36,140 nt of DNA from the NCBI GenBank assembly GCA_028288595.1, contig JAQBNK010000142.1, positions 1 to 36,140 of the forward strand, written 5' to 3'. The notes under the pieces are model-generated. The model was not told the DNA's origin, did no database searches, and saw nothing but the letters and a program-made list of their open reading frames with translations. Source of the DNA: Chitinophagaceae bacterium. Its GTDB lineage: Bacteria > Bacteroidota > Bacteroidia > Chitinophagales > Chitinophagaceae. Shown in pieces: positions 4,725 to 16,909 of the stretch (within the stretch, counting starts at the first letter, position 1; every line of letters begins with the position of its first letter). Both the position numbers and the translations under genes were made by a program.

Positions 4725-4765
4725 ATTTGCCAGGGGCCATTTATCAAAAAAAAATTACTTTTTTT

Positions 4766-4805
4766 TATGGAAACTTTGGTTACATGATAAGTTTCCATAG
4801 TTTTG
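4766..4805 (+). promoter_or_regulatory. Promoter of the efflux operon with overlapping TetR-type operator
   Basis: A perfect 11-bp inverted repeat, TATGGAAACTT (4766-4776) and AAGTTTCCATA (4789-4799), is separated by 12 bases. The Bacteroidota promoter elements lie on it: TTTG at 4775-4778 fits the -33 element and TAGTTTTG at 4798-4805 fits TAnnTTTG at -7, with exactly 19 bases between them. The TetR start codon is 20 bases past the -7 box. A repressor bound to both half-sites would cover both promoter elements, which implies autoregulation of the whole operon. The regulator-operator pairing is inferred from position. Confidence 0.75.
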
Positions 4806-4825
4806 CAATCCAAAATCGTGGAAAA

Positions 4826-5452
4826 ATGGAAATGAAGGAAAGGATACAGCAAAAAGCGGAAGAGCTGTTCAGGCTATATGGCATTCGAAGCGTTACCATG
4901 GATGAGATAGCCTCGCACCTGGGTATTTCAAAAAAAACCATCTACCTGTCTTTTGCAGACAAAGAAGAAGTGGTGAGAGCCGTTTTCGATGCCATGTTAT
5001 CGGAAAATAAAAATTGTTGCATGGAGGGAAGAAATAGTGCATTAAACCCGGTGCATGAAATATTTCTTGCTTTCGACCAGATGCAGGTGATGATGGATAA
5101 TATGAACCCCTCTATTCTTTTTGATCTTGAGAAATACCATCCTGAAGTTTTTAAAAAGTTTCATGAATACAAATACTCTTTCCTGTACGACATTATTAGA
5201 AAAAACCTGGAGTGGGGTGTTGAGGAGGGATTATACCGCGACGATATTAATATTGATATACTTACCAGGTTCAGGATAGAAAGTGCAATGATGGCTTTTA
5301 ACCCACAGGCGTTTCCCGACAATAAGAAGCATTTTATGCTGATACAAAAAGAGATCACAGAACATTTTTTATATGGCGTGGTATCAGCTAAAGGCAGTAA
5401 ACTAATAGAAAAATATAAAAAGAAAAATCAACCTAAACCTTTATTAAAATGA
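4826..5452 (+). CDS. TetR/AcrR family transcriptional repressor of the efflux operon
   Basis: This encodes a 208-residue TetR-family regulator. The N-terminal helix-turn-helix is clear: VTMDEIASHLGISKKTIYLSF at about residues 23-43, followed by ADKEEVV, as in the family. The C-terminal ~150 residues are the variable ligand-binding and dimerisation part. I placed the start at the ATG at 4826 (MEMKERIQQKAEEL), because the upstream in-frame extension to 4727 translates the promoter and operator. The gene heads a four-gene operon, and its stop overlaps the TolC start by four bases (ATGA), so translation is probably coupled. By position it should repress its own operon through the palindrome at 4766-4799, with induction by a drug-like or metabolite ligand that cannot be predicted. 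Confidence 0.9.
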   Translation: MEMKERIQQKAEELFRLYGIRSVTMDEIASHLGISKKTIYLSFADKEEVVRAVFDAMLSENKNCCMEGRNSALNPVHEIFLAFDQMQVMMDNMNPSILFDLEKYHPEVFKKFHEYKYSFLYDIIRKNLEWGVEEGLYRDDINIDILTRFRIESAMMAFNPQAFPDNKKHFMLIQKEITEHFLYGVVSAKGSKLIEKYKKKNQPKPLLK

Positions 5453-6843
5453 GGAGCCTAAGACTTTTAATTATTTGTATGGCAATATTAACCGCTATAC
5501 AATCGGAGGCGCAGAACAAGTACGAATTAACCGTTAGAGATGCGGTAGAACTGGCATTTAAAAATTTGACTGATGTAAAGAATGCACAGATAGATTACCA
5601 GTTACAGGAAGCGAAAAACAAAGAAATTGTTGGCCAGGCTTTACCCCAGGTTAGTGCGAATGCAGGTTTAAATCATTACCTCTCCTTACCCTCTATTCTG
5701 TTCCCCGATGCTAGTTCAACCGCTGTTTATTCCATTCTGAAAAATGAAGGAGTAAAAGATGGCAACGGCATGCCGATCACTAAAGTACCTGATCCTACCA
5801 TGCGACAGGTAAGTTTTCAGCAACCCTGGAACGCAAATTTGGGAGCAACAGTATCTCAATTACTTTTTCAGCCGGATGTGTTTGTTGGATTACAGGCCAG
5901 GAAAGTTGCATTAGATTATGCGGCGTCTAATATAGAGCAGGTGAAGGCAAGAGTAAAAGATTCTGCTTACAAAAGATACTATGCGATTCTGATTGCAGAA
6001 AAGCAAACATATTTCCTAAGCGAAAGTATCAAGCGATTAGAAAAATTATACCACGACGATTCTGTACTGTATAAAAATGGTTTTGCTGAGAGGCTTGACC
6101 TGGATAAAGTTCAGGTACAATTAACAAATCTCAGAACAACTTATAACATTGTTCAAAGTGGCGTGCAGTTAGCTTACGGTGCTTTAAAGTTTGCATTAGG
6201 ATTAAATCAAAAAGATACCGTTGTTTTAAAAGAAGATCTCACGGTAGATAAGATCAAAGAAGGGGTTCTTGATGACAATTTTAAATATGACGACAGGCCG
6301 GAAATCCGTACCCTGTCTTACACACGCAGGTTGCAGGAACTTGATCTGAAAAGAAATAAATTAGGTTACCTGCCTACTGTTTCGGCCCAGGGAAATTATG
6401 GGATTAGCGGAATGGGACAACAATTTATTACAAATAGCAGCACTAACTGGTTTAAGAGTTCTTTCATAGGGCTGAATTTAAATCTTCCCATCTTCGATGG
6501 TTTTCAGCGCAAGTATAAAGTGAAGCAATCTCAACTGAATATTCAAAAACTGGATAATGTAATCAGCCAGGTAAAACAGGGAATAGATTTTGAACAATTC
6601 GCAACGAAAGAAAGTTTAAAAAGTTCTTTATTAAATCTTGATGCGCAGGAACGGAATATAGAACTCGCAGAAAGAGTATACACTGCTACAAAAAAGAAAT
6701 TTGAGCAGGGCCTTGGCTCCAGTTTTGAAATTCTGCAGGCTGATAATGATTATCAAACAGCTCAATCAAATTATTTCAGCGCCCTATATAATGCGATCGT
6801 AGCTAAAGTAAGCTACCAGCATTCCTTAGGTAAACTAAACTAA
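5449..6843 (+). CDS. TolC-family outer-membrane efflux channel
   Basis: This encodes a 464-residue TolC-like outer-membrane protein, within the usual family range. It has an N-terminal signal peptide (about residues 1-21, ending SEA|QNK). Two long alpha-helical repeats follow, visible as heptad-like stretches such as DAVELAFKNLTDVKNAQIDYQ and the matching second half (ELAERVYTATKKKFEQGLGSS). They flank beta-strand segments (LGATVSQLLFQPDVF and FIGLNLNLPIFDGF). The PIFDGF and FEQG-type motifs recur in Bacteroidota TolC proteins. It would form the trimeric exit duct for the RND pump encoded two genes downstream. The start overlaps the regulator stop by four bases and only 27 bases separate its stop from the adaptor start, so co-expression is strongly implied. 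Confidence 0.92.
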   Translation: MRSLRLLIICMAILTAIQSEAQNKYELTVRDAVELAFKNLTDVKNAQIDYQLQEAKNKEIVGQALPQVSANAGLNHYLSLPSILFPDASSTAVYSILKNEGVKDGNGMPITKVPDPTMRQVSFQQPWNANLGATVSQLLFQPDVFVGLQARKVALDYAASNIEQVKARVKDSAYKRYYAILIAEKQTYFLSESIKRLEKLYHDDSVLYKNGFAERLDLDKVQVQLTNLRTTYNIVQSGVQLAYGALKFALGLNQKDTVVLKEDLTVDKIKEGVLDDNFKYDDRPEIRTLSYTRRLQELDLKRNKLGYLPTVSAQGNYGISGMGQQFITNSSTNWFKSSFIGLNLNLPIFDGFQRKYKVKQSQLNIQKLDNVISQVKQGIDFEQFATKESLKSSLLNLDAQERNIELAERVYTATKKKFEQGLGSSFEILQADNDYQTAQSNYFSALYNAIVAKVSYQHSLGKLN

Positions 6844-6870
6844 CACACCTAAACACCTTAAATGATCTTT

Positions 6871-8079
6871 ATGAAATTATTCGTTAAGTATGTTACGGTT
6901 CTTTCACTTGTTTTTCTTACCGCATGCGGCGGAAGTAAAAAAGAGGAGACCGCTACTGTTACAGAAAAAAGAACAAAGCTTGAAAAACTAAAAAAGGACC
7001 AGTTATCTATTGCTGATCAAATAAAAGCACTTGAAGCAGATCTTGCTGTGCAGGATCCAACTTCAGCAAATACAGGTTCTGCAAAACTGGTTAGCGTTAT
7101 GCCCTTAAGCGTTCAGTCGTTTGCACACTATATAGACCTGCAGGGAAAAGTGGATGCTGATAATATTTCTTATGTATCTCCGAGATTGGGACCTGGACAG
7201 GTAAAAGCAATCTTTATAAAAAAAGGTGATCACGTTAGAAAGGGCCAGCTGCTTTTAAAGTTAGATGATGCCATCCAGCGCCAATCTATAACAGCGGCAA
7301 GGCAAAGTATTGAGACGATTAAAACACAGCTCGCCTTTGCAAAAGATGTATATAACCGCCAGAATAATGTCTGGAAGCAGGGCATAGGAACTGAAGTGCA
7401 GGTACTGACTGCTAAAACAAACGTTGAAACTTTAGAAAAGCAATTAAGAGCTGGGGAAGAAAATATAAAGACCATGCAGGAACAGGCTAATGCTGCAAAC
7501 ATTTATAGTGATGTTTCAGGCATTGCCGACGAGGTGAATGTAAGAATGGGCGAAATGTTTACAGGTTTTGCTGGAGCAGTTCCGCAGATAAAAATTGTAA
7601 ATACCAGCAGCCTTAAAGTTGTTGCCCAGGTGCCTGAAAACTATGCATCAAAAGTAAAAATGGGTGCGCCGGTTTTGGTTATACTTCCGGATGGAAATTC
7701 AACACCGATAAAAACGGTGATCTCTTTATCCGGGCAATCCATCGATCCGAATAACAGGAGCTTTATTGCTGAAGCAAAAATTCCTTACAGTCCCCAGGTT
7801 CGTCCTAATCAAATTGCACAAATAAGAATACAGGATTACGCAATTGCTTCAACACTTGCAGTACCGGTAAATACGGTCCAATCTGATGAAAACGGTAAAT
7901 ATGTTTTTATCGCGGCGAAAGAAGGAGATAAAATGGTTGCCAGGAAAAAATCAATCGGTGTTGGTGAATTAAATGGTCAGCTGATAGAAGTGAAAGTTGG
8001 TTTAAAAGAAGGCGATCAATTAATTACTGATGGTTACCAGAGTTTATACGAGGGCCAGGTAATTAGTGTGGTTAAATAA
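6871..8079 (+). CDS. RND efflux periplasmic adaptor (membrane fusion) lipoprotein
   Basis: This encodes a membrane fusion protein of about 402 residues. The N-terminus (MKLFVKYVTVLSLVFLTAC) is a lipoprotein signal with lipobox LTAC and Cys at residue 19. An ATG nine bases upstream (6862) is in frame and equally usable. After the Cys comes an unusual charged coiled-coil stretch (about 30-60), then the usual order: a biotinyl-lipoyl half-domain (GQVKAIFIKKGDHVRKGQLLLKLDD), a helical hairpin, the second half-domain (VSGIADEVNVRMGEMF), a beta-barrel domain and a membrane-proximal domain ending in VKVGLKEGDQLITDGYQSLYEG. It links the inner-membrane RND pump to TolC. The early coiled coil precedes the standard domains and is not needed for the canonical fold. 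Confidence 0.92.
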   Translation: MKLFVKYVTVLSLVFLTACGGSKKEETATVTEKRTKLEKLKKDQLSIADQIKALEADLAVQDPTSANTGSAKLVSVMPLSVQSFAHYIDLQGKVDADNISYVSPRLGPGQVKAIFIKKGDHVRKGQLLLKLDDAIQRQSITAARQSIETIKTQLAFAKDVYNRQNNVWKQGIGTEVQVLTAKTNVETLEKQLRAGEENIKTMQEQANAANIYSDVSGIADEVNVRMGEMFTGFAGAVPQIKIVNTSSLKVVAQVPENYASKVKMGAPVLVILPDGNSTPIKTVISLSGQSIDPNNRSFIAEAKIPYSPQVRPNQIAQIRIQDYAIASTLAVPVNTVQSDENGKYVFIAAKEGDKMVARKKSIGVGELNGQLIEVKVGLKEGDQLITDGYQSLYEGQVISVVK

Positions 8080-8173
8080 ATGAGGCGATAGATGATCAAT
8101 ATTATACAGTACAAGAGTGCGACGCCTGTGGTGTTGAAGAGAATTACAAAAGTTGACTACAAAAAAATTTCAC

Positions 8174-11100
8174 ATGAAAATATTTGAGGGTGTAACAAAA
8201 AAGTTTAAACAGTTTAAACCGACGAGTTGGTCGGTGGATAATAAAACTGTTATTTATGTGATCACCATTTTAATTACTGCTTATGGACTTACGAAGTTCA
8301 ATACCATGCCGAAGGAACAGTTTCCTGATATTGTGGTACCAACTATTTCTGTTACGACAATCTATTTTGGTAACTCCGCAAGAGATATTGAGAACCTGGT
8401 AACAAGACCGATTGAAAAACAAATAAAAGGTATCAGCGGCGCCAAAGTAAATAAGGTGACCTCAACGTCTCAGCAGGATTACAGCCTGATAATCGTTGAA
8501 TTCGATACCGACGTAAAAACAGAAATTGCTAAACAGAAAGTAAAAGACGCATTAGATAAAGCGAGGTCCGATCTTCCTACAGACCTTACCGAGGAACCGA
8601 ATGTTGCAGAGTTCGATTTTAGCCAGATGCCTATTATGTTCGTTAACATCAGCGGTAATTACGATGGTATTAAACTGAAACAGTATGCTGATAAAATGCA
8701 GGATCGTTTCGAGGAAATGAAACAGATCAACAGGGCTGAAATTGTGGGAGCGCCGGAAAGAGAGATCCAGATCAATGTGGATCCATATAAGATGGAAGCT
8801 GCTAAACTTACTTTCAGCGATATTGCCAATGCGGTAAATTATGAGAATAGAGATATCAGTGGCGGGCTTGTAGAAGTTGGCGAAATGAAACGCACCATTC
8901 GAATCAAAGGCCAGTTTACTACGGCCATGAACATGAATGATATCATTGTAAAAAATGTTCAGGGCGCACCAATCTATTTAAGAGACGTCGCAGAAATAGT
9001 AGATACTGTAAAAGAAACAGAAAGCTATGCACGGTTAGACGGTCAGAATGTAATTACCCTCAACATTGTAAAACGTGCCGGCGAAAACCTCATCAACACA
9101 GCGGATGGGGTGAAGAAAATAGTGGCGGATATGCAAACTGCGCATGAGCTTCCTCCCGATCTGAAAGTAGTGATAACAGGCGATCAGAGTAAACAAACTA
9201 AAACATCATTTAATGAACTGGTAAATACGATCATTATTGGTTTCGTTTTAGTGTTGCTCATCCTGATGTTCTTCATGGGCGTTACCAATGCATTCTTTGT
9301 TGCCCTGAGTGTTCCCTTATCTGTGTTTGTCGCTTTTATGTTTTTACCACTGGGAGATTTACTGATCGGCTCACCCATAACCCTCAACTTTATTGTACTG
9401 TTTGCGTTGTTATTCGGGCTCGGAATAATTGTGGATGATGCGATCGTGGTAATCGAAAATACCCATCGTATTTATAACAACGGGAAGGTCCCGATTGTCC
9501 GCTCTGCAAAAGAAGCAGCAGGGGAAGTTTTCGTTCCCGTACTTGCGGGAACAGCTACGACACTGGCTCCTTTCTTTCCTTTATTGTTATGGAAAGGACT
9601 GATCGGTAAGTTCATGATCTATTTGCCGGTGATGCTGATATTAACCCTCACTGCATCATTAATAGTAGCCTTTATCATGAACCCCGTGTTTGCTGTTAGC
9701 TTCATGAAACCTGAAGGCAGGCAATATGAAAAACCTAAAAAATATATTTTTAAAACCTGGTGGTTCTGGACCTTCCTCGCATTTGGAGTGCTCTTTAATT
9801 TAGCCGGCTGGCATGGCATGGGTAACTTTTTCATCTTTATCGATCTGATGGTGATGCTGGAAGCCTTCCTGCTAAGGAACGTGATTCATTATTTCCAGGA
9901 AAGAGTTTTACCCGGCCTGATGAACCGTTACGAAAAATTACTTCGCTGGGTGTTGATAGGAAAGAGACCTGCATACATGTTCGCTTCTTTATTCGGATTA
10001 TTTTTTATAGCTATTGTAGCATTGATCATTCGAAATAATCCAAAACCTTTCTTTCCCAGCGGTGACCCGCATTTTGTATATGTATATTTAAAAATGCCTG
10101 TCGGCACTAAAGCAGCCACTACAGATTCTGTTACAAGAATTTTAGAAGGGCGTGTACGCAAAGTATTAGAAAAAGAAAAACCCGGCGCACCCGGTAGCGT
10201 TGTAGAAAGTATTATTTCGAACGTTGCCATCAGTGCAAATAACCCGAGAGATAACAACAGGAGTACACAATCCAATTTAGGAAGGCTGCAGGTTTCATTC
10301 GTAGAGTTTGATAAACGTAATGGAAAAAGTACCGCACCTTATTTAACACAAATAAGAGATGTGGTGCAGGGTATTCCCGGTGCTTCAGTAGAAGTTGGAC
10401 AGGAAGATGCAGGCCCTCCCACAGATCCTCCTGTTAATATTGAAGTGGTAGGGGACAATTTTGAATCAATCTCCAAAGTTGCGCTTGATCTTAAAAATTA
10501 TCTTGATACCAATAAAGTAAACGGCATCGAAAATTTATTACTCGATGTTGATCTGCTGAATCCTGAGATCACTATAAATGTAGACAGGGAAAGAGCGTTG
10601 CGTGAAGGTATAAGTACGGGACAGATCGGTATGGCGATTCGTACTGCAGTATTTGGCCAGGAAGTAAGTAAGCTGAAAGATGGTGAAGATGAATATAAAA
10701 TTCAGTTACGTTATAATGAGCTGACACGAAATAATATTGCTGACCTCATGAACATGCGTATCACTTTCCGTGATTTTAATTCCGGCGCTATAAGACAGGT
10801 TCCATTAAACGCGGTTGCAACTGTTGATTATACAAATACAACGGGTGCTGTTAAAAGAAAAAACGTTAAACGTACCATCCAGTTACAATCGATGGTGCTC
10901 GATCCAACTATGACGCCGGTAATTAATAAAGAACTGGCCACAAAAATTGAAGACTTTAAAAGCAGGTCAAAAATTCCTGCAGATGTAACGATTAAACAAA
11001 CAGGTGAAAGTGAACAACAGGCAGAAACAATGAGCTTCCTGGGAACCTCGCTTATTCTCGCATTGTTATTAATCTTTCTGATACTTGTTCTGCAGTTTAA

Positions 11101-11746
11101 TAGTTTAAGCAAACCGTTTATCGTATTAACAGAAATATTTTTCTCTATCATAGGCGTGTTTCTTGGCTATGCAATTACAGGAATGACGATGGCAACCATC
11201 ATGGTGGGTGTTGGTATTATAGGCCTGGCGGGTATTGTAATTAAGAACGGGATCCTGTTAATTGAATTTACAGATGAACTGCGGGGAAGAGGCATGCGAA
11301 CACGGGAAGCTGCGATACAGGCGGGAAGAATTCGTATCATACCTGTACTGTTAACCGCACTGGCAACTATCTTAGGATTGTTACCGCTTGCTGTTGGATT
11401 TAATATTGATTTCGTTTCTTTCTTCCAGCATCTTAACCCGCATATTTTCTTTGGCGGAGACAGCGTCGTTTTCTGGGGACCATTAAGCTGGACCATCATT
11501 TTCGGGTTAATATTTTCTTTCTTCCTCACGCTCGTAATGGTGCCGAGCATGTATATCATTTCACAGCGGTTAAGAAGACCGATGGAGAGATTCTATGGCA
11601 CAAAATATATCGCGTTGTTAGGTTTTCTCGGACCATTCTTTTTCATTTTTGTCGGAATTATGTTTGGCGTTAGAAGATTACAGGGCAAAAAAGTCTGGAT
11701 GGGAAGATTAAAACCTGAGCCGGTAAGAAGACCAGTTTTAGTTTAA
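8174..11746 (+). CDS. RND-type multidrug efflux pump (AcrB-like), enlarged
   Basis: This encodes a proton-driven inner-membrane RND transporter of 1190 residues; typical AcrB-type pumps are about 1020-1060. The TM4 proton-relay pair is present in GIIVDDAIVVIEN (Asp421-Asp422), and the TM10 lysine in GIVIKNGILLIEF (Lys1024). Two periplasmic loops with porter and docking segments follow TM1 and TM7. Extra length comes from two places: residues ~520-567, between the first and second halves, add hydrophobic segments (WWFWTFLAFGVLF and FFIFIDLMVMLEAFLL), and the C-terminus has one more (YIALLGFLGPFFFIFVGIMFG) before a basic tail. The ATG at 8174 is preferred; an in-frame TTG lies at 8153. A 94-base gap precedes the gene. 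It ends the operon at a strong terminator. Confidence 0.93.
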   Translation: MKIFEGVTKKFKQFKPTSWSVDNKTVIYVITILITAYGLTKFNTMPKEQFPDIVVPTISVTTIYFGNSARDIENLVTRPIEKQIKGISGAKVNKVTSTSQQDYSLIIVEFDTDVKTEIAKQKVKDALDKARSDLPTDLTEEPNVAEFDFSQMPIMFVNISGNYDGIKLKQYADKMQDRFEEMKQINRAEIVGAPEREIQINVDPYKMEAAKLTFSDIANAVNYENRDISGGLVEVGEMKRTIRIKGQFTTAMNMNDIIVKNVQGAPIYLRDVAEIVDTVKETESYARLDGQNVITLNIVKRAGENLINTADGVKKIVADMQTAHELPPDLKVVITGDQSKQTKTSFNELVNTIIIGFVLVLLILMFFMGVTNAFFVALSVPLSVFVAFMFLPLGDLLIGSPITLNFIVLFALLFGLGIIVDDAIVVIENTHRIYNNGKVPIVRSAKEAAGEVFVPVLAGTATTLAPFFPLLLWKGLIGKFMIYLPVMLILTLTASLIVAFIMNPVFAVSFMKPEGRQYEKPKKYIFKTWWFWTFLAFGVLFNLAGWHGMGNFFIFIDLMVMLEAFLLRNVIHYFQERVLPGLMNRYEKLLRWVLIGKRPAYMFASLFGLFFIAIVALIIRNNPKPFFPSGDPHFVYVYLKMPVGTKAATTDSVTRILEGRVRKVLEKEKPGAPGSVVESIISNVAISANNPRDNNRSTQSNLGRLQVSFVEFDKRNGKSTAPYLTQIRDVVQGIPGASVEVGQEDAGPPTDPPVNIEVVGDNFESISKVALDLKNYLDTNKVNGIENLLLDVDLLNPEITINVDRERALREGISTGQIGMAIRTAVFGQEVSKLKDGEDEYKIQLRYNELTRNNIADLMNMRITFRDFNSGAIRQVPLNAVATVDYTNTTGAVKRKNVKRTIQLQSMVLDPTMTPVINKELATKIEDFKSRSKIPADVTIKQTGESEQQAETMSFLGTSLILALLLIFLILVLQFNSLSKPFIVLTEIFFSIIGVFLGYAITGMTMATIMVGVGIIGLAGIVIKNGILLIEFTDELRGRGMRTREAAIQAGRIRIIPVLLTALATILGLLPLAVGFNIDFVSFFQHLNPHIFFGGDSVVFWGPLSWTIIFGLIFSFFLTLVMVPSMYIISQRLRRPMERFYGTKYIALLGFLGPFFFIFVGIMFGVRRLQGKKVWMGRLKPEPVRRPVLV

Positions 11747-12016: not shown

Positions 12017-12319
12017 TTAATGAACGCGTTTATATTTTGTTTTAGCCGGAAGATGGCCATATTTTTTTGTCCTGTGCTTACCATATAAATAACCGGCACC
12101 GCCGCCTACAGCGCCACCTACTAAAGCACCGCTTGCTTTATGCGTAATAAGAGCACCTGCTACAGCACCTGCACCAGCGCCTATCAGTGTACTTTTCTTA
12201 GTACGGCTGGGATGTGTTGTTTTAGATTTTATTTTTGTTTGCGCCTGTGTTGAAGTATAAACACCCGGAACAATGGCTAAACCAATTGCCAGGCCTAATA
12301 CGTGAATCATCTTTTTCAT
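12017..12319 (-). CDS. Small secreted glycine-zipper protein
   Basis: This encodes a 100-residue exported protein. A signal peptide (about residues 1-27, ending STQA|Q) is followed by a basic stretch, a glycine-zipper segment from about 44 to 80 (GAGAGAVAGALITHK then GGAVGGGAGYLYG), and a basic tail rich in Lys, His and Tyr. Glycine-zipper segments of this type insert into or lie against membranes, as in YmgG-like or SmpA-associated envelope proteins; the exact role is unknown. The zipper closely resembles the one at the C-terminus of the lipoprotein at 16325-16909, including the spacing of the His and the GGG-GY step, so the two are probably paralogous modules. It has its own terminator and is separated from the CAT gene by 135 bases. 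Confidence 0.75.
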   Translation of the reverse strand: MKKMIHVLGLAIGLAIVPGVYTSTQAQTKIKSKTTHPSRTKKSTLIGAGAGAVAGALITHKASGALVGGAVGGGAGYLYGKHRTKKYGHLPAKTKYKRVH

Positions 12320-12454: not shown

Positions 12455-13084
12455 TTATCTTTCATTTAATAATTGCTGAAAAAGATTCACGAATTCCCCC
12501 ACATGGTAGCCATCCATAAGCGCATGATGTGCATGAACAGACACCGGCATTGTCCTGGTTCCATGACTATCTTCAGTCATTTTACCAAACGAAATTTTAG
12601 GAATGCTATCCTTAAATGAAAAAGCCCTTGCGTGGGAAAGAGAAGTAAAGTTCAGCCATGGAACTGAGGAGTAGTGGATCACATTCTCACCGGATACCGC
12701 AGGTATCAGCCCTTTTGAGTTTTGTACCTTATCAATTTCCTGCTGCGCACTTTTCTCAAACGAAGAGAAGTCTTCATGATAATCCATATAAGCAAAACCA
12801 AATGTTCCGTCTTCCCTGTTGATCGTTGGCGATGCATGAACAGCATCATACAGAATGGCATCGTCGCCTTCTATTCTATACCGGAAAGGTTCGATAGCAT
12901 TTGCTGCAATGAGTGATTTGTGCAGGTAATAAAGAAAAAACGAAATGCCAGCAGCTTTTGTTTTGTGATAGGCTATTGTACAATCTGCGTGGATACATAC
13001 ACCAAAAAATGGTTCTTCAAACTTTCTGAAAAAATGGAAATGATCTTTGCGCTTCCATGTTTCTAAGTCCAGCTTTTGTTTCAT
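12455..13084 (-). CDS. Chloramphenicol acetyltransferase-family protein
   Basis: This encodes a 209-residue member of the CAT (type A) family, close to the usual ~215. The catalytic signature HHALMDGYHVG is near the C-terminus; by comparison with CAT, His187 is the catalytic base and Asp191 the structural partner. Also visible are the early segment RKDHFHFFRKF and the central PWLNFTSLSHA stretch, which match the CAT SFTSF-like region. It would transfer acetyl from acetyl-CoA to a hydroxyl. Whether chloramphenicol is the substrate is uncertain, since many chromosomal Bacteroidota members are uncharacterised. Its start overlaps the stop of the HAD gene by one base (TGATG), so the two are translationally coupled. 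No terminator was seen after it. Confidence 0.87.
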   Translation of the reverse strand: MKQKLDLETWKRKDHFHFFRKFEEPFFGVCIHADCTIAYHKTKAAGISFFLYYLHKSLIAANAIEPFRYRIEGDDAILYDAVHASPTINREDGTFGFAYMDYHEDFSSFEKSAQQEIDKVQNSKGLIPAVSGENVIHYSSVPWLNFTSLSHARAFSFKDSIPKISFGKMTEDSHGTRTMPVSVHAHHALMDGYHVGEFVNLFQQLLNER

Positions 13085-13798: not shown

Positions 13799-14052
13799 TA
13801 AGCATTTTTTTTGCTCGGGAGTAAAGACAAGTTGCAGAGATTCCCCGTCATGGCTGTTAGCCTGGTTACTACACTTAAACTAATTGAGTACTGCTGTTAA
13901 GAAGATTTGTGATATGTCGTAGTAATGAGCAATAAGATCATTACTGCTAACATGTTATGATATTTTTCCGGCCCGGAGGAGTTTTGCTTTCAGGCTGCTG
14001 TTGGTATGGTGGTATAAACTTTGTTTCACTTGGTGTAAATAAAAAGAGGCAT

Positions 14053-16005
14053 ATGAAAAGAGGATTCCTTTTGTTGTTTGGCTGTATTATGTCAGCCTCA
14101 GCAATAATAGCACAAACAGTATCTATATCTTTTGCAGGTAGTAACAATAACAATTCCGCCCGGAATTACCAGGCAGTTGTAGATGGAAGAAGCTATTCAT
14201 CCAACGGAACCAACAGCAGGATAGGAAGCACAGGACAGCAGGTTATCACTCTCACTAACCTGCCACTGGGTACGCATAATCTGGAGATTTACAGGGCCAA
14301 TTCGGACGATGTATACAATGCAGGTAGTAATAATAGAGCTATCTATTCCAATACTTTTCAATTAAGGCAGGGATATGATATGTTTATAACAGTAAGAGCC
14401 GGCGGACAGGTTTCTTTTAGTGAAAGACCTTACACAGGCAATGGTGGTTATGGTAATAATAACGGCGCTTATGGTAACAATAATAATATGAATGCCACGG
14501 CGATGAGCAATGCTACTTTTAACCAGTTGTATCAAAGTGTGAGAGGAAAAATTCTTCAACCATTAAAAGTGACAGCGGTCAGAAATGCATTCAACAATAA
14601 CAGTTATTATTTTACTACCACACAGGTTGGCCAGTTATTATCCCTGGTGAATAGCGAATCTAACCGGCTTGAACTGGCAAGGTTGTCCTATTCGCACATT
14701 GTTGATCCAACTAATTTTTCTCAGCTATATGATTTATTCAACAGTCAGTCCAGCAGGGATGCATTAGACAATGAAGTAAGGATAAATGGCAATGTTAATG
14801 GTGGCTACAATAATAACAATGGTGGCTACAATAATAACGGTGGATACAATAATGGTAATAATGGTGGGAATAATTATCCTAACAACAGGGTAGCAATTGA
14901 TGCTTACCAGTTCAATAATTTTCTGCAAAATGTAAGAAGCAAATTTACACAGGCAGGTAAAATAAGTGCCATCAGGGATGGTTTTAGCGGAGATAACTAT
15001 TATACCACTGTGCAGGTAAGGCAATTACTTTCTATGGTAAATGCAGAGATTGAAAGATTATCGCTTGCTAAACTTTCATGGAGCCATGTTGTTGATGTAA
15101 ATAACTTTTCTTCATTGAACGACTTATTCAATAGCCAGTCCAGCAGGGATGAGCTTAACAATTATATTAACGTGAATGGTGGCGGAGGTATAAACACCGG
15201 TATAAATAATAACACCGGTATAAATAATAATGGTGGTTATAATAACAATAATGGCGGTTACAATAATGGCAATAATAATAACAACGGTGTTTATGATAAC
15301 GGCAGTTATAGTAACAATCCCTACAATAACCGCATTGCCATGGATACTTACCAGTTCAACCAGGTATTACAAAATGTTAACAGCAAATGGACGCAGCCTT
15401 CCCGCGTTACAGCTGTAAGAGATGCATTTAATACATCTGGTTATTATTATAGCACGGCACAGGTTAGACAATTACTCTCTGGTATAAATGCTGAATCAGA
15501 CAGGTTAAGCTTAGCCAAATTGTCTTATGCAAGGGTTTCTGATCCTGCATCTTTTTCTTCTTTGTATGATTTGTTTAATACCCAGTCCAGCAGGGACGAT
15601 CTGAATAGTTTTATAAGAGTAAATGGCGGATCTAATACAGGCGGAACAATTAATGTTCCCGGCACAACAAATAATGATTACCCCTATAATAACAGGGTAG
15701 CTATGAATGATGTTGCATTTAATCAACTATTGCAAACGACCCGTGACCATATATTCCAGGTTAGTAAAGTAAATGCGCTCAGAGATGCATTTAGTAATAC
15801 AGCATATTATTTTTCAGCCAGCCAGGTAAGACAATTGTTATCCTTAGTAACCAGCGAGGCCAGCAGGCTTGAACTGGCGAAATTGTCCTATAGAAACATC
15901 ACTGATCCTTCTGCATTTATGCAGCAGTTATATGATCTGTTTCCCAGCCAGTCGAGCAGGGATGAACTAAATGTTTACATCACTAGTAGCAATAGATACT
16001 ATTAA
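14053..16005 (+). CDS. Secreted protein with four tandem DUF4476 domains
   Basis: This encodes a 650-residue exported protein. A signal peptide covers residues 1-20 (ending IIA|QTV). An N-terminal beta-rich region (~21-130) follows, then four copies of a ~92-residue helical domain at about 151-242, 280-372, 427-518 and 549-645. Each copy has the DUF4476 pattern: F-x-x-L/V-Q start, a QVxQLLS step, E-xx-RL-x-LAKLS, and a closing LFxSQSSRDxL. The linkers are almost pure Asn, Gly and Tyr. Proteins with one DUF4476 are common in Bacteroidota, but their function is unknown. I placed the start at MKRGFLLL (14053); the frame is open 32 codons further upstream but that part is not signal-like. A terminator lies just after the stop, so the gene is probably monocistronic. 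Confidence 0.85.
   Translation: MKRGFLLLFGCIMSASAIIAQTVSISFAGSNNNNSARNYQAVVDGRSYSSNGTNSRIGSTGQQVITLTNLPLGTHNLEIYRANSDDVYNAGSNNRAIYSNTFQLRQGYDMFITVRAGGQVSFSERPYTGNGGYGNNNGAYGNNNNMNATAMSNATFNQLYQSVRGKILQPLKVTAVRNAFNNNSYYFTTTQVGQLLSLVNSESNRLELARLSYSHIVDPTNFSQLYDLFNSQSSRDALDNEVRINGNVNGGYNNNNGGYNNNGGYNNGNNGGNNYPNNRVAIDAYQFNNFLQNVRSKFTQAGKISAIRDGFSGDNYYTTVQVRQLLSMVNAEIERLSLAKLSWSHVVDVNNFSSLNDLFNSQSSRDELNNYINVNGGGGINTGINNNTGINNNGGYNNNNGGYNNGNNNNNGVYDNGSYSNNPYNNRIAMDTYQFNQVLQNVNSKWTQPSRVTAVRDAFNTSGYYYSTAQVRQLLSGINAESDRLSLAKLSYARVSDPASFSSLYDLFNTQSSRDDLNSFIRVNGGSNTGGTINVPGTTNNDYPYNNRVAMNDVAFNQLLQTTRDHIFQVSKVNALRDAFSNTAYYFSASQVRQLLSLVTSEASRLELAKLSYRNITDPSAFMQQLYDLFPSQSSRDELNVYITSSNRYY
15177..15330 (+). 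repeat. Low-complexity AAT/GGT repeat encoding an Asn/Gly linker
   Basis: Imperfect iterations of GGTGGTTATAATAAC-like units encode the linker between the second and third DUF4476 domains. Similar shorter tracts lie at about 14440-14490 and 14797-14880. The units are codon-phased (multiples of 3), so length changes would alter linker length without breaking the frame. Confidence 0.7.
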
Positions 16006-16026: not shown

Positions 16027-16056
16027 AAAAAAGCCATTGTATTCAATGGCTTTTTT
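16027..16056. terminator. Terminator after the DUF4476 gene
   Basis: A perfect stem AAAAAAGCCATTG (16027-16039) pairs with CAATGGCTTTTTT (16044-16056) around a four-base loop. It begins 21 bases past the stop codon. Confidence 0.92.
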
Positions 16057-16324
16057 TAATGGCATACAGTAAGCTCATGTTTTCTCTAACGTTCCTTTAG
16101 CATCTGTCTTTAAACATATTTGAAAGCACGAGGTCAAACCTAGAAGCATTCTTTAATAAGATCTTTCATTACGTTAATGCTTTTTTGTTAAGTATTATTC
16201 GAAATAAAACACTGGTTTTTAATGATCAAAAACGAAAAATGTTAAGTATGCACTGATTCTTTTGAATGGCACAATTTTCTCTAATACAGCTACAAACCCG
16301 ATTATTAATTTTAAAAACATCCTT
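16057..16324 (+). other. AT-rich upstream region of the glycine-zipper lipoprotein
   Basis: There is no gene in this 268-base stretch. It begins with a repeat-like phrase (16068-16110, sharing ACGTTCCTTTAGC with the region at 11832), then AT-rich sequence. A weak -7 candidate TTCTTTTG lies at 16257-16264, about 60 bases before the ATG, without a good -33 partner. The lipoprotein promoter must lie here because a terminator closes the upstream gene. Confidence 0.4.
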
Positions 16325-16909
16325 ATGAAAAAAATTATTCCTATTCTTAGTATTGTTGTCATAGCTGCAGCAGCATGTAACAGCAAGCCCTCAAATAATG
16401 CGGGTAAACCAGGTGAAGAAATAAGTTTTAAAGTTTCTGATACTTCAGGCCTTTCTGAATTTAAAAACTGGAAAGCAAAACAAAATGCAACGGCTGAATA
16501 CCAGCGTGAATTTTCAACTGCGCAGGTTCCGCAAACACAACCGCAGATTATCTATGTGCAACAACCCGCAGCGCCGGTAGTGCATCATACAAGTGCTCCG
16601 GCGAGAAGATCAAGTTCACGCAGTGTAGCACATCATACTTCTTCACGCAGTTCATCAGGTTCAGGTAACTCCAGTGTTTACCAGAGCGGATCTGCAACAA
16701 CAGCGCCTGTATATGCTCCTATACCTCAGAAAAAAGGATGGAGTAAAGCAGCAAAAGGTGCAGCAATCGGTGGTGGTGCCGGGGCTGTTATCGGAGCGGT
16801 TGTTTCTAAACATAACCGTGTGTTGGGTGGTGCAATAGGTGCTATACTCGGTGGCGGTGGTGGTTACGTACTGGGCCGTTCAGCAGATAAAAAAGATGGC
16901 AGATACTAA
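16325..16909 (+). CDS. Glycine-zipper lipoprotein
   Basis: This encodes a 194-residue lipoprotein. The signal MKKIIPILSIVVIAAAAC has a lipobox with Cys at residue 18. A low-complexity middle follows, rich in Gln, Pro, Ser and His (including a QPQIIYVQQPAAP stretch and several Ser/Arg-rich runs). The C-terminal glycine-zipper domain (about 140-188) begins after KKGWSKAAKGAAIGGGAG, ends with GGGGGYVLGRSADKK, and matches YmgG-like zipper families. It is likely anchored in the outer membrane facing the periplasm. I started it at 16325; the open frame extends upstream to 16262 but lacks a signal-like start. Its zipper resembles that of the protein at 12017-12319. Function is unknown; a structural or stress-related envelope role is a guess. 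Confidence 0.8.
   Translation: MKKIIPILSIVVIAAAACNSKPSNNAGKPGEEISFKVSDTSGLSEFKNWKAKQNATAEYQREFSTAQVPQTQPQIIYVQQPAAPVVHHTSAPARRSSSRSVAHHTSSRSSSGSGNSSVYQSGSATTAPVYAPIPQKKGWSKAAKGAAIGGGAGAVIGAVVSKHNRVLGGAIGAILGGGGGYVLGRSADKKDGRY

Follow-up and report, generated by a model that had tools for sequence, protein, structure and literature searches.

The window, the whole 36,140-nucleotide stretch analysed here, comes from a bacterium of the family Chitinophagaceae and carries on its plus strand a frame open from the ATG at 14053 to the stop codon at 16003-16005, with a product of 650 amino acids. This start was preferred over an upstream ATG of the same frame at 13957 because the signal-like stretch begins at 14053. 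The protein consists, in order, of an export-type N-terminus, a beta domain, an Asn/Gly tract and four DUF4476 domains (beads) separated by three linkers, and it ends six residues past the last domain (Table 1). Pfam placed DUF4476 (PF14771) in four stretches of the protein (E 7.4e-61, 202.9 bits against a cut-off of 22.5), and in the profile search every one of the four copies exceeded the cut-off singly. The domain borders used here are those of our own DUF4476 profile. A hairpin 3' of the gene, listed on the minus strand only but with its T run visible on the plus strand, is likely the transcription terminator.

Table 1. Features of the DUF4476 array gene and of its neighbours in the window
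Feature	Position	Strand	Basis or remark
Gene run, presumably a TetR-type regulator, outer-membrane efflux protein, membrane fusion protein and RND transporter	4727-11746	+	
Small protein with a glycine-rich stretch	12017-12319	-	
CatA-like O-acetyltransferase	12455-13084	-	
DUF4476 array gene	14053-16005	+	
Signal peptide, aa 1-20, MKRGFLLLFGCIMSASAIIA, followed by Q	14053-14112	+	Judged visually in the translated frame; signal peptidase I type probable
N-terminal beta domain, aa 22-126, eight predicted strands	14116-14430	+	Model and alignment of 27 rows
Asn/Gly pre-linker ahead of domain 1, 23 aa	14434-14502	+	aa 126-149 pLDDT <50
DUF4476 domain 1, aa 151-243	14503-14781	+	Pfam, own profile, single-domain model (mean pLDDT 93.1)
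Linker 1, 38 aa; 21-nt tandem repeat x2.9 at 14797-14853	14782-14895	+	aa 243-278 pLDDT <50
DUF4476 domain 2, aa 282-373	14896-15171	+	Own profile; closest to domain 3 in trees
Linker 2, 56 aa; 18-nt repeat x2.1 (15193-15230), 21-nt x2.0 (15226-15266), overlapping 15-nt x2.7 (15241-15281)	15172-15339	+	aa 376-427 pLDDT <50
DUF4476 domain 3, aa 430-522	15340-15618	+	Own profile, trees
Linker 3, 28 aa; no repetition beyond chance	15619-15702	+	aa 525-548 pLDDT <50
DUF4476 domain 4, aa 551-644	15703-15984	+	Own profile
13-bp hairpin with flanking A and T runs	16027-16056		3' of the gene
Glycine-zipper lipoprotein-like gene	16322-16906	+	Next gene

The four DUF4476 copies are 50-61% identical to each other in protein and 53-63% in DNA, and are thus true but old duplicates. 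All four retain Gln41, Arg55, Leu58 and Asp68 (present in 69, 64, 64 and 67 of the 69 copies in the family set, respectively), so that no bead looks decayed, and they vary mildly at Lys60, Tyr63 and Asn71. Within the domain, helical hairpins two and three resemble each other (in domain 1 and its copies, QLLSLVNSESNRLEL and QLYDLFNSQSSRDAL); comparison of hairpin sub-profiles with hhalign gave P values of 0.024-0.11 (0.042 for the second against the third), which is suggestive only of an internal hairpin repeat. The genome holds one further DUF4476 match, a single-copy gene on another contig (L005, G000:C77, 601-1770), and the ORF directly after it is, we assume, truA.

Among the neighbouring genes, relatives of the glycine-zipper lipoprotein-like gene lie near a DUF4476 array at three other loci (L073, L076 and L080). 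We considered it as a functional partner of the array and kept it as a lead only: the family occurs in 19 of the 20 genomes checked, at one to six places in each, and the matches in G361 and G417, two genomes discussed below, are on other contigs than the array. The small protein on the other side, which has a second glycine-rich stretch, is weakly similar to the same product (E 2.8e-4). The CatA-like O-acetyltransferase reached at best 125.2 bits against an NCBIfam cut-off of 300; it is a distant CatA relative and not a recognised chloramphenicol resistance gene.

Predicted fold, export and the beta domain

AlphaFold2 predicted the single bead, from an input of the four window copies and two of the related array L065, as six helices that may be read as three hairpins; the five single-bead models had mean pLDDT values of 93.1, 91.7, 74.5, 58.0 and 52.7. 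The full-length model, built from only two sequences (mean pLDDT 62.6, pTM 0.26), contained four helical blocks and eight N-terminal strands (E22-27 to E120-126), and its pLDDT fell below 50 over most of each linker. Confidence in the beta domain was modest, with loops 29-36, 51-62 and 83-93 also below 50. These predictions give good support to a beads-on-a-string architecture of folded homologous domains and disordered linkers. The original prediction, of four tandem homologous helical domains joined by Asn/Gly-rich linkers of different length, holds in each of these parts. Structural comparison identified no close counterpart: a Foldseek search with the single bead returned nothing at E up to 0.001 (best E 0.3), the best match of the full model, a chain of the type IX translocon entry 8gl8 (E 0.0023, TM 0.17), was set aside as a generic helical match, and the PDB sequence matches of the whole protein (E 0.16), the DUF4476 profile (E 0.05, Csm2) and the beta domain (E 0.062) were attributed to chance.

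In 62 of 70 distinct DUF4476 frames the N-terminus opens with basic residues and runs on into a hydrophobic stretch. In the window protein the putative signal ends in Ala followed by Gln, a pattern of signal peptidase I cleavage, and it also includes a lipobox-like Cys11 (LFGC, aa 8-11). A cysteine at position 11 within the hydrophobic stretch, often as L-x-[SG]-C, occurs in 10 of the 62 signal-like N-termini, namely those of the window protein itself (L035), L040-L043, L046, L048, L075, L116 and L021. From its sequence, outer-membrane lipidation of the window protein is conceivable. The beta domain could be aligned over 27 rows, at 19-52% identity to the window row, and is shared by single-copy relatives. 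In the window protein it matched no Pfam family over the cut-off, and none at E up to 1. Among the relatives, 16 of the 27 rows matched CE2_N (PF17996) at E up to 1, the best at 5.6e-6; a rescan of 10 relatives' rows, which did not include that best row, gave two matches at E up to 0.01, the higher at 21.9 bits against a cut-off of 27.9. The relatives' domains thus have a weak, below-cut-off similarity to CE2_N and CBM77, carbohydrate-associated beta-sandwich families, which the window copy lacks.

A rival reading is that the protein acts outside the cell, as a surface adhesin or as part of the biofilm matrix. An export-type N-terminus followed by repeated domains on flexible linkers is consistent with such a role, as are the faint carbohydrate-associated resemblance of the relatives' beta domains and the occasional lipobox-like cysteine. 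However, Cys11 sits very early for a lipoprotein signal, and the closest relatives of the window protein (L065, L066/L036 and L113) have Gly or Ala in its place. The whole protein also contains no type IX (Por) secretion tail (NCBIfam at E up to 0.1, Pfam at E up to 1), and a weak match to this tail appeared in just 2 of 27 N-terminal fragments (best E 0.13). Type IX cargo would carry a C-terminal sorting domain, and here the last DUF4476 domain lies only six residues from the end. We regard this reading as improbable.

Repetition in the linker DNA

The linkers differ sharply from the domains in composition. Asn, Gly and Tyr make up 84, 75 and 50% of linkers 1 to 3 and 74% of the pre-linker, and Asn and Gly together account for just 12% of the DUF4476 domains. 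Tandem Repeats Finder reported five rows for the 36-kb window, of which four fall within these linkers. Their periods are 21, 18, 21 and 15 nt, and none has more than 2.9 copies (range 2.0-2.9); linkers 1 and 2 contain in-frame direct repeats of 21 nt at period 21 and of 20 nt at period 18. Shuffling the order of the codons gave a tandem score at or above the observed one in 2, 6 and 138 of 500 shuffles for linkers 1 to 3 and in 24 of 500 for the pre-linker. When synonymous codons were shuffled so that the peptide was kept, the corresponding counts were 25, 79 and 177 of 500, and 364 of 500 for the pre-linker. The repetition of linkers 1 and 2 is thus genuine, but it mostly reflects the peptide, since synonymous shuffles match it as well or nearly so, with linker 1 borderline. 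Similarity between linkers followed the same pattern. Linkers 1 and 2 were more alike than in any of 500 codon-order shuffles, and 385 of 500 synonymous shuffles were at or above the observed likeness; for the pre-linker and linker 2 these counts were 0 and 54, and for linkers 1 and 3, which are weakly alike, 26 and 332. The remaining three pairs did not stand out (93, 375 and 212 of 500 codon-order shuffles).

The original prediction had described the linker DNA as repetitive in multiples of three, and had proposed that slippage could change linker length without a frameshift. The first claim stands for linkers 1 and 2 in the qualified sense given above, and fails for linker 3, which is no more repetitive than chance. 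Any repeated peptide encoded in an open frame would show such codon phasing, which alone is no evidence. The second claim would make the gene a contingency locus, in which slippage in AAT/GGT tracts varies tether length at high frequency within a population. Contingency loci typically have a short unit repeated in tandem many times almost without change; the window linkers hold 2.0-2.9 copies of units of 15-21 nt, and nothing in their DNA points clearly to recent slippage. The in-frame direct repeats, the borderline score of linker 1 and the differences in linker length among relatives lend this explanation some plausibility, but the low copy number, the ease with which synonymous shuffles reproduce linkers 2 and 3 and the likeness of linkers 1 and 2, and the near-invariance of two other subfamilies across genera (below) all oppose it, and the copy-number difference seen among relatives is that of a whole domain. 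We accordingly rejected an origin of the linkers by recent slippage, with the reservation for linker 1, and a slippage-driven switch appears very unlikely. The case shows that linker repeats which keep the frame are not, by themselves, enough for a contingency locus. A linker element that is mobile or spread through the genome was also discarded: one 20-nt degenerate spelling of the NGGYNN pattern occurs four times in the 4.1-Mb genome, always in this gene, and its reversed control does not occur at all.

Array size and history among relatives

With the own genome included in each count, the DUF4476 profile matched 44 of the 59 genomes of the relatives search and 34 of 395 genomes spread over the phylum, and the whole protein as query matched 177 of 394 genomes of the family. 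Copy number among relatives ranges from one to five domains. The 28 distinct frames with at least two domains comprise seven with two, eight with three, ten with four and three with five, a count taken from best-match loci that is biased to arrays and includes the window and frames cut by contig ends. Other families of the order likewise have frames with two to three copies, and two genomes of genus g130 (G511 and G727), from the same class but outside the order, have three DUF4476 matches in one frame of about 345 aa, indicating that tandem copies are not restricted to the family. The array is patchy within a genus: 6 of 20 genomes of the related genus g67, G361 included, match the G361 protein, and 14 do not.

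Genomes of two species of that genus permit a direct comparison at one locus. The array of G361 (L066) consists of three domains joined by linkers of 27 and 18 aa, and that of G417 (L113) of four, joined by linkers of 21, 11 and 16 aa; both are draft genomes, G417 being about 79% complete. The loci are syntenic, with eight neighbours at 73-87% identity and a ninth cut by the contig end, and the array protein itself is only 59% conserved. Domain number and linker length therefore differ within one genus at one syntenic locus. Assembly collapse as the cause of the difference is thought unlikely, the two middle copies of G417 being 73% identical in DNA. The array of G419 (L065) is cut by the contig end inside its third domain, and G420 has a more distant protein with two domains. 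Other subfamilies show the opposite behaviour. In the five-domain proteins of G344 and G282 (genus g108) and G311 (g123), the domains cluster by position, every cluster being starred in the tree, and the linkers measure 16-18, 10, 13 and 12-13 aa. The four-domain proteins of G286, G347 and G319 (g115) and G026 (g27) have one to three neighbours in common pairwise and linkers of 10-12, 13 and 17-19 aa, the last domain of G347 being cut by the contig end. Both subfamilies thus show almost no variation in copy number or linkers from genus to genus. The four-domain protein L072 of G369 (g108; linkers of 29, 20 and 15 aa) was examined as an orthologue that had changed copy number and rejected, as it has no neighbours in common with the five-bead proteins of its genus. 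The expectation that the protein is length-variable is thus borne out between species, with linkers and domain number not invariant within a related genus, and does not extend to every subfamily.

Trees of single beads suggest how the window array may have grown. Window beads 2 and 3 are sisters (97/82 in one tree and 93/89, unstarred, in a second), and the middle beads of L113 and L066 adjoin them. Bead 3 of L066 and bead 4 of L113 group together (96/63) within a starred group that holds bead 2 of L065. First, middle and last beads of this clade tend to fall into separate classes, with window beads 1 and 4 and bead 1 of L065 only loosely placed and several forks unstarred. Judged from these sequences, the window lineage probably duplicated its middle bead. 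On the simplest reading, the ancestor would have had three beads, and its middle unit would have been duplicated twice, once in the window lineage and once in G417; a single ancestral duplication with later loss or conversion is the alternative and may also account for the trees.

Such changes could also be neutral, bead number and linker length drifting with little effect while the protein works through its beta domain and a single bead, in the manner of single-copy relatives. Consistent with this possibility, single-bead relatives with a recognisable version of the same beta domain are present in many genomes, copy number covers the whole range from one to five, and the array protein is less conserved than its neighbours between G361 and G417. 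However, the strongest signature residues are kept in all four window copies, and the positional copies of the five-bead group are conserved across genera, which together suggest selection on each bead. We consider neutral elaboration rather unlikely.

Possible function and comparison with known systems

The explanation that we prefer, and to which we give about an even chance, is that the gene encodes an exported, non-enzymatic multivalent scaffold that changes by gain or loss of whole units on a species timescale. The protein would be exported by the Sec pathway and cleaved by signal peptidase I. Its beta domain is predicted to fold ahead of four independent six-helix beads on disordered Asn/Gly/Tyr tethers, and may hold the protein to the envelope or to a glycan. 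Each bead could act as a binding module, such that bead number would set avidity and linker length would set reach. With about 0.36 nm per residue of extended linker, the combined reach of the three linkers would be no more than about 44 nm in the window protein, compared with about 17 nm in G417. A whole unit of bead and linker, in the window clade the middle one, would occasionally be gained or lost over the timescale of species, and the gene would not behave as a fast slippage switch. Multivalent binding is deduced here from shape and multiplicity only, and the conserved polar residues could instead be catalytic or purely structural. It is conceivable that the repetitive Asn/Gly linkers serve as exchange points for the gain and loss of linker-plus-bead units, making the protein an evolvable avidity ruler: closely related strains would then have different numbers of beads and a different reach, and would thereby tune their binding to the envelope or to an environmental polymer; we offer this extension as a speculation with a rather small chance of being correct.

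The window protein joins a functionally uncharacterised family as a new member. A search of the open-licence literature found no functional work on bacterial DUF4476 and no molecular function for the domain, which is present in bacteria and has been reported in spiralian animals. The bacterial arrays form a natural series, from one bead up to five, and the three- and four-bead pair at the same locus could be used to test the role of one bead.

Several known systems resemble the window protein in part. By VIA-align, the bead superimposed on 5h78_A with a Z of 8.9 (95 aligned residues, rmsd 2.7), and its stacked helices resemble those of the designed helical repeat DHR14 and of HEAT-like solenoids; the Foldseek E of 0.3 is insignificant and the Z is within the range common for helical bundles, and no homology is claimed. 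Lophotrochin of spiralian animals has an N-terminal part reported to resemble DUF4476, but it is an animal protein expressed in ciliary bands, with a C-terminal motif of its own, and the sections of its description considered here mention no tandem array or bacterial role (PMC7441323). Close counterparts are the orthologues L066 and L113, which have the same signal-like N-terminus, beta domain and first, middle and last bead classes, and are 44% identical to the window protein over 535 aligned columns and 43% over 657, respectively; they differ in having three or four beads, shorter linkers (11-27 aa) and no neighbour genes in common with the window. Among the DUF4476 proteins of the Bacteroidota, many relatives likewise begin with a signal-like N-terminus and continue through a beta domain and a linker to DUF4476 at the very C-terminal end. 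Outside this bacterial family, those in the phylum-wide sample mostly carry one copy per frame, whereas the window protein carries four, separated by long linkers rich in Asn, Gly and Tyr.
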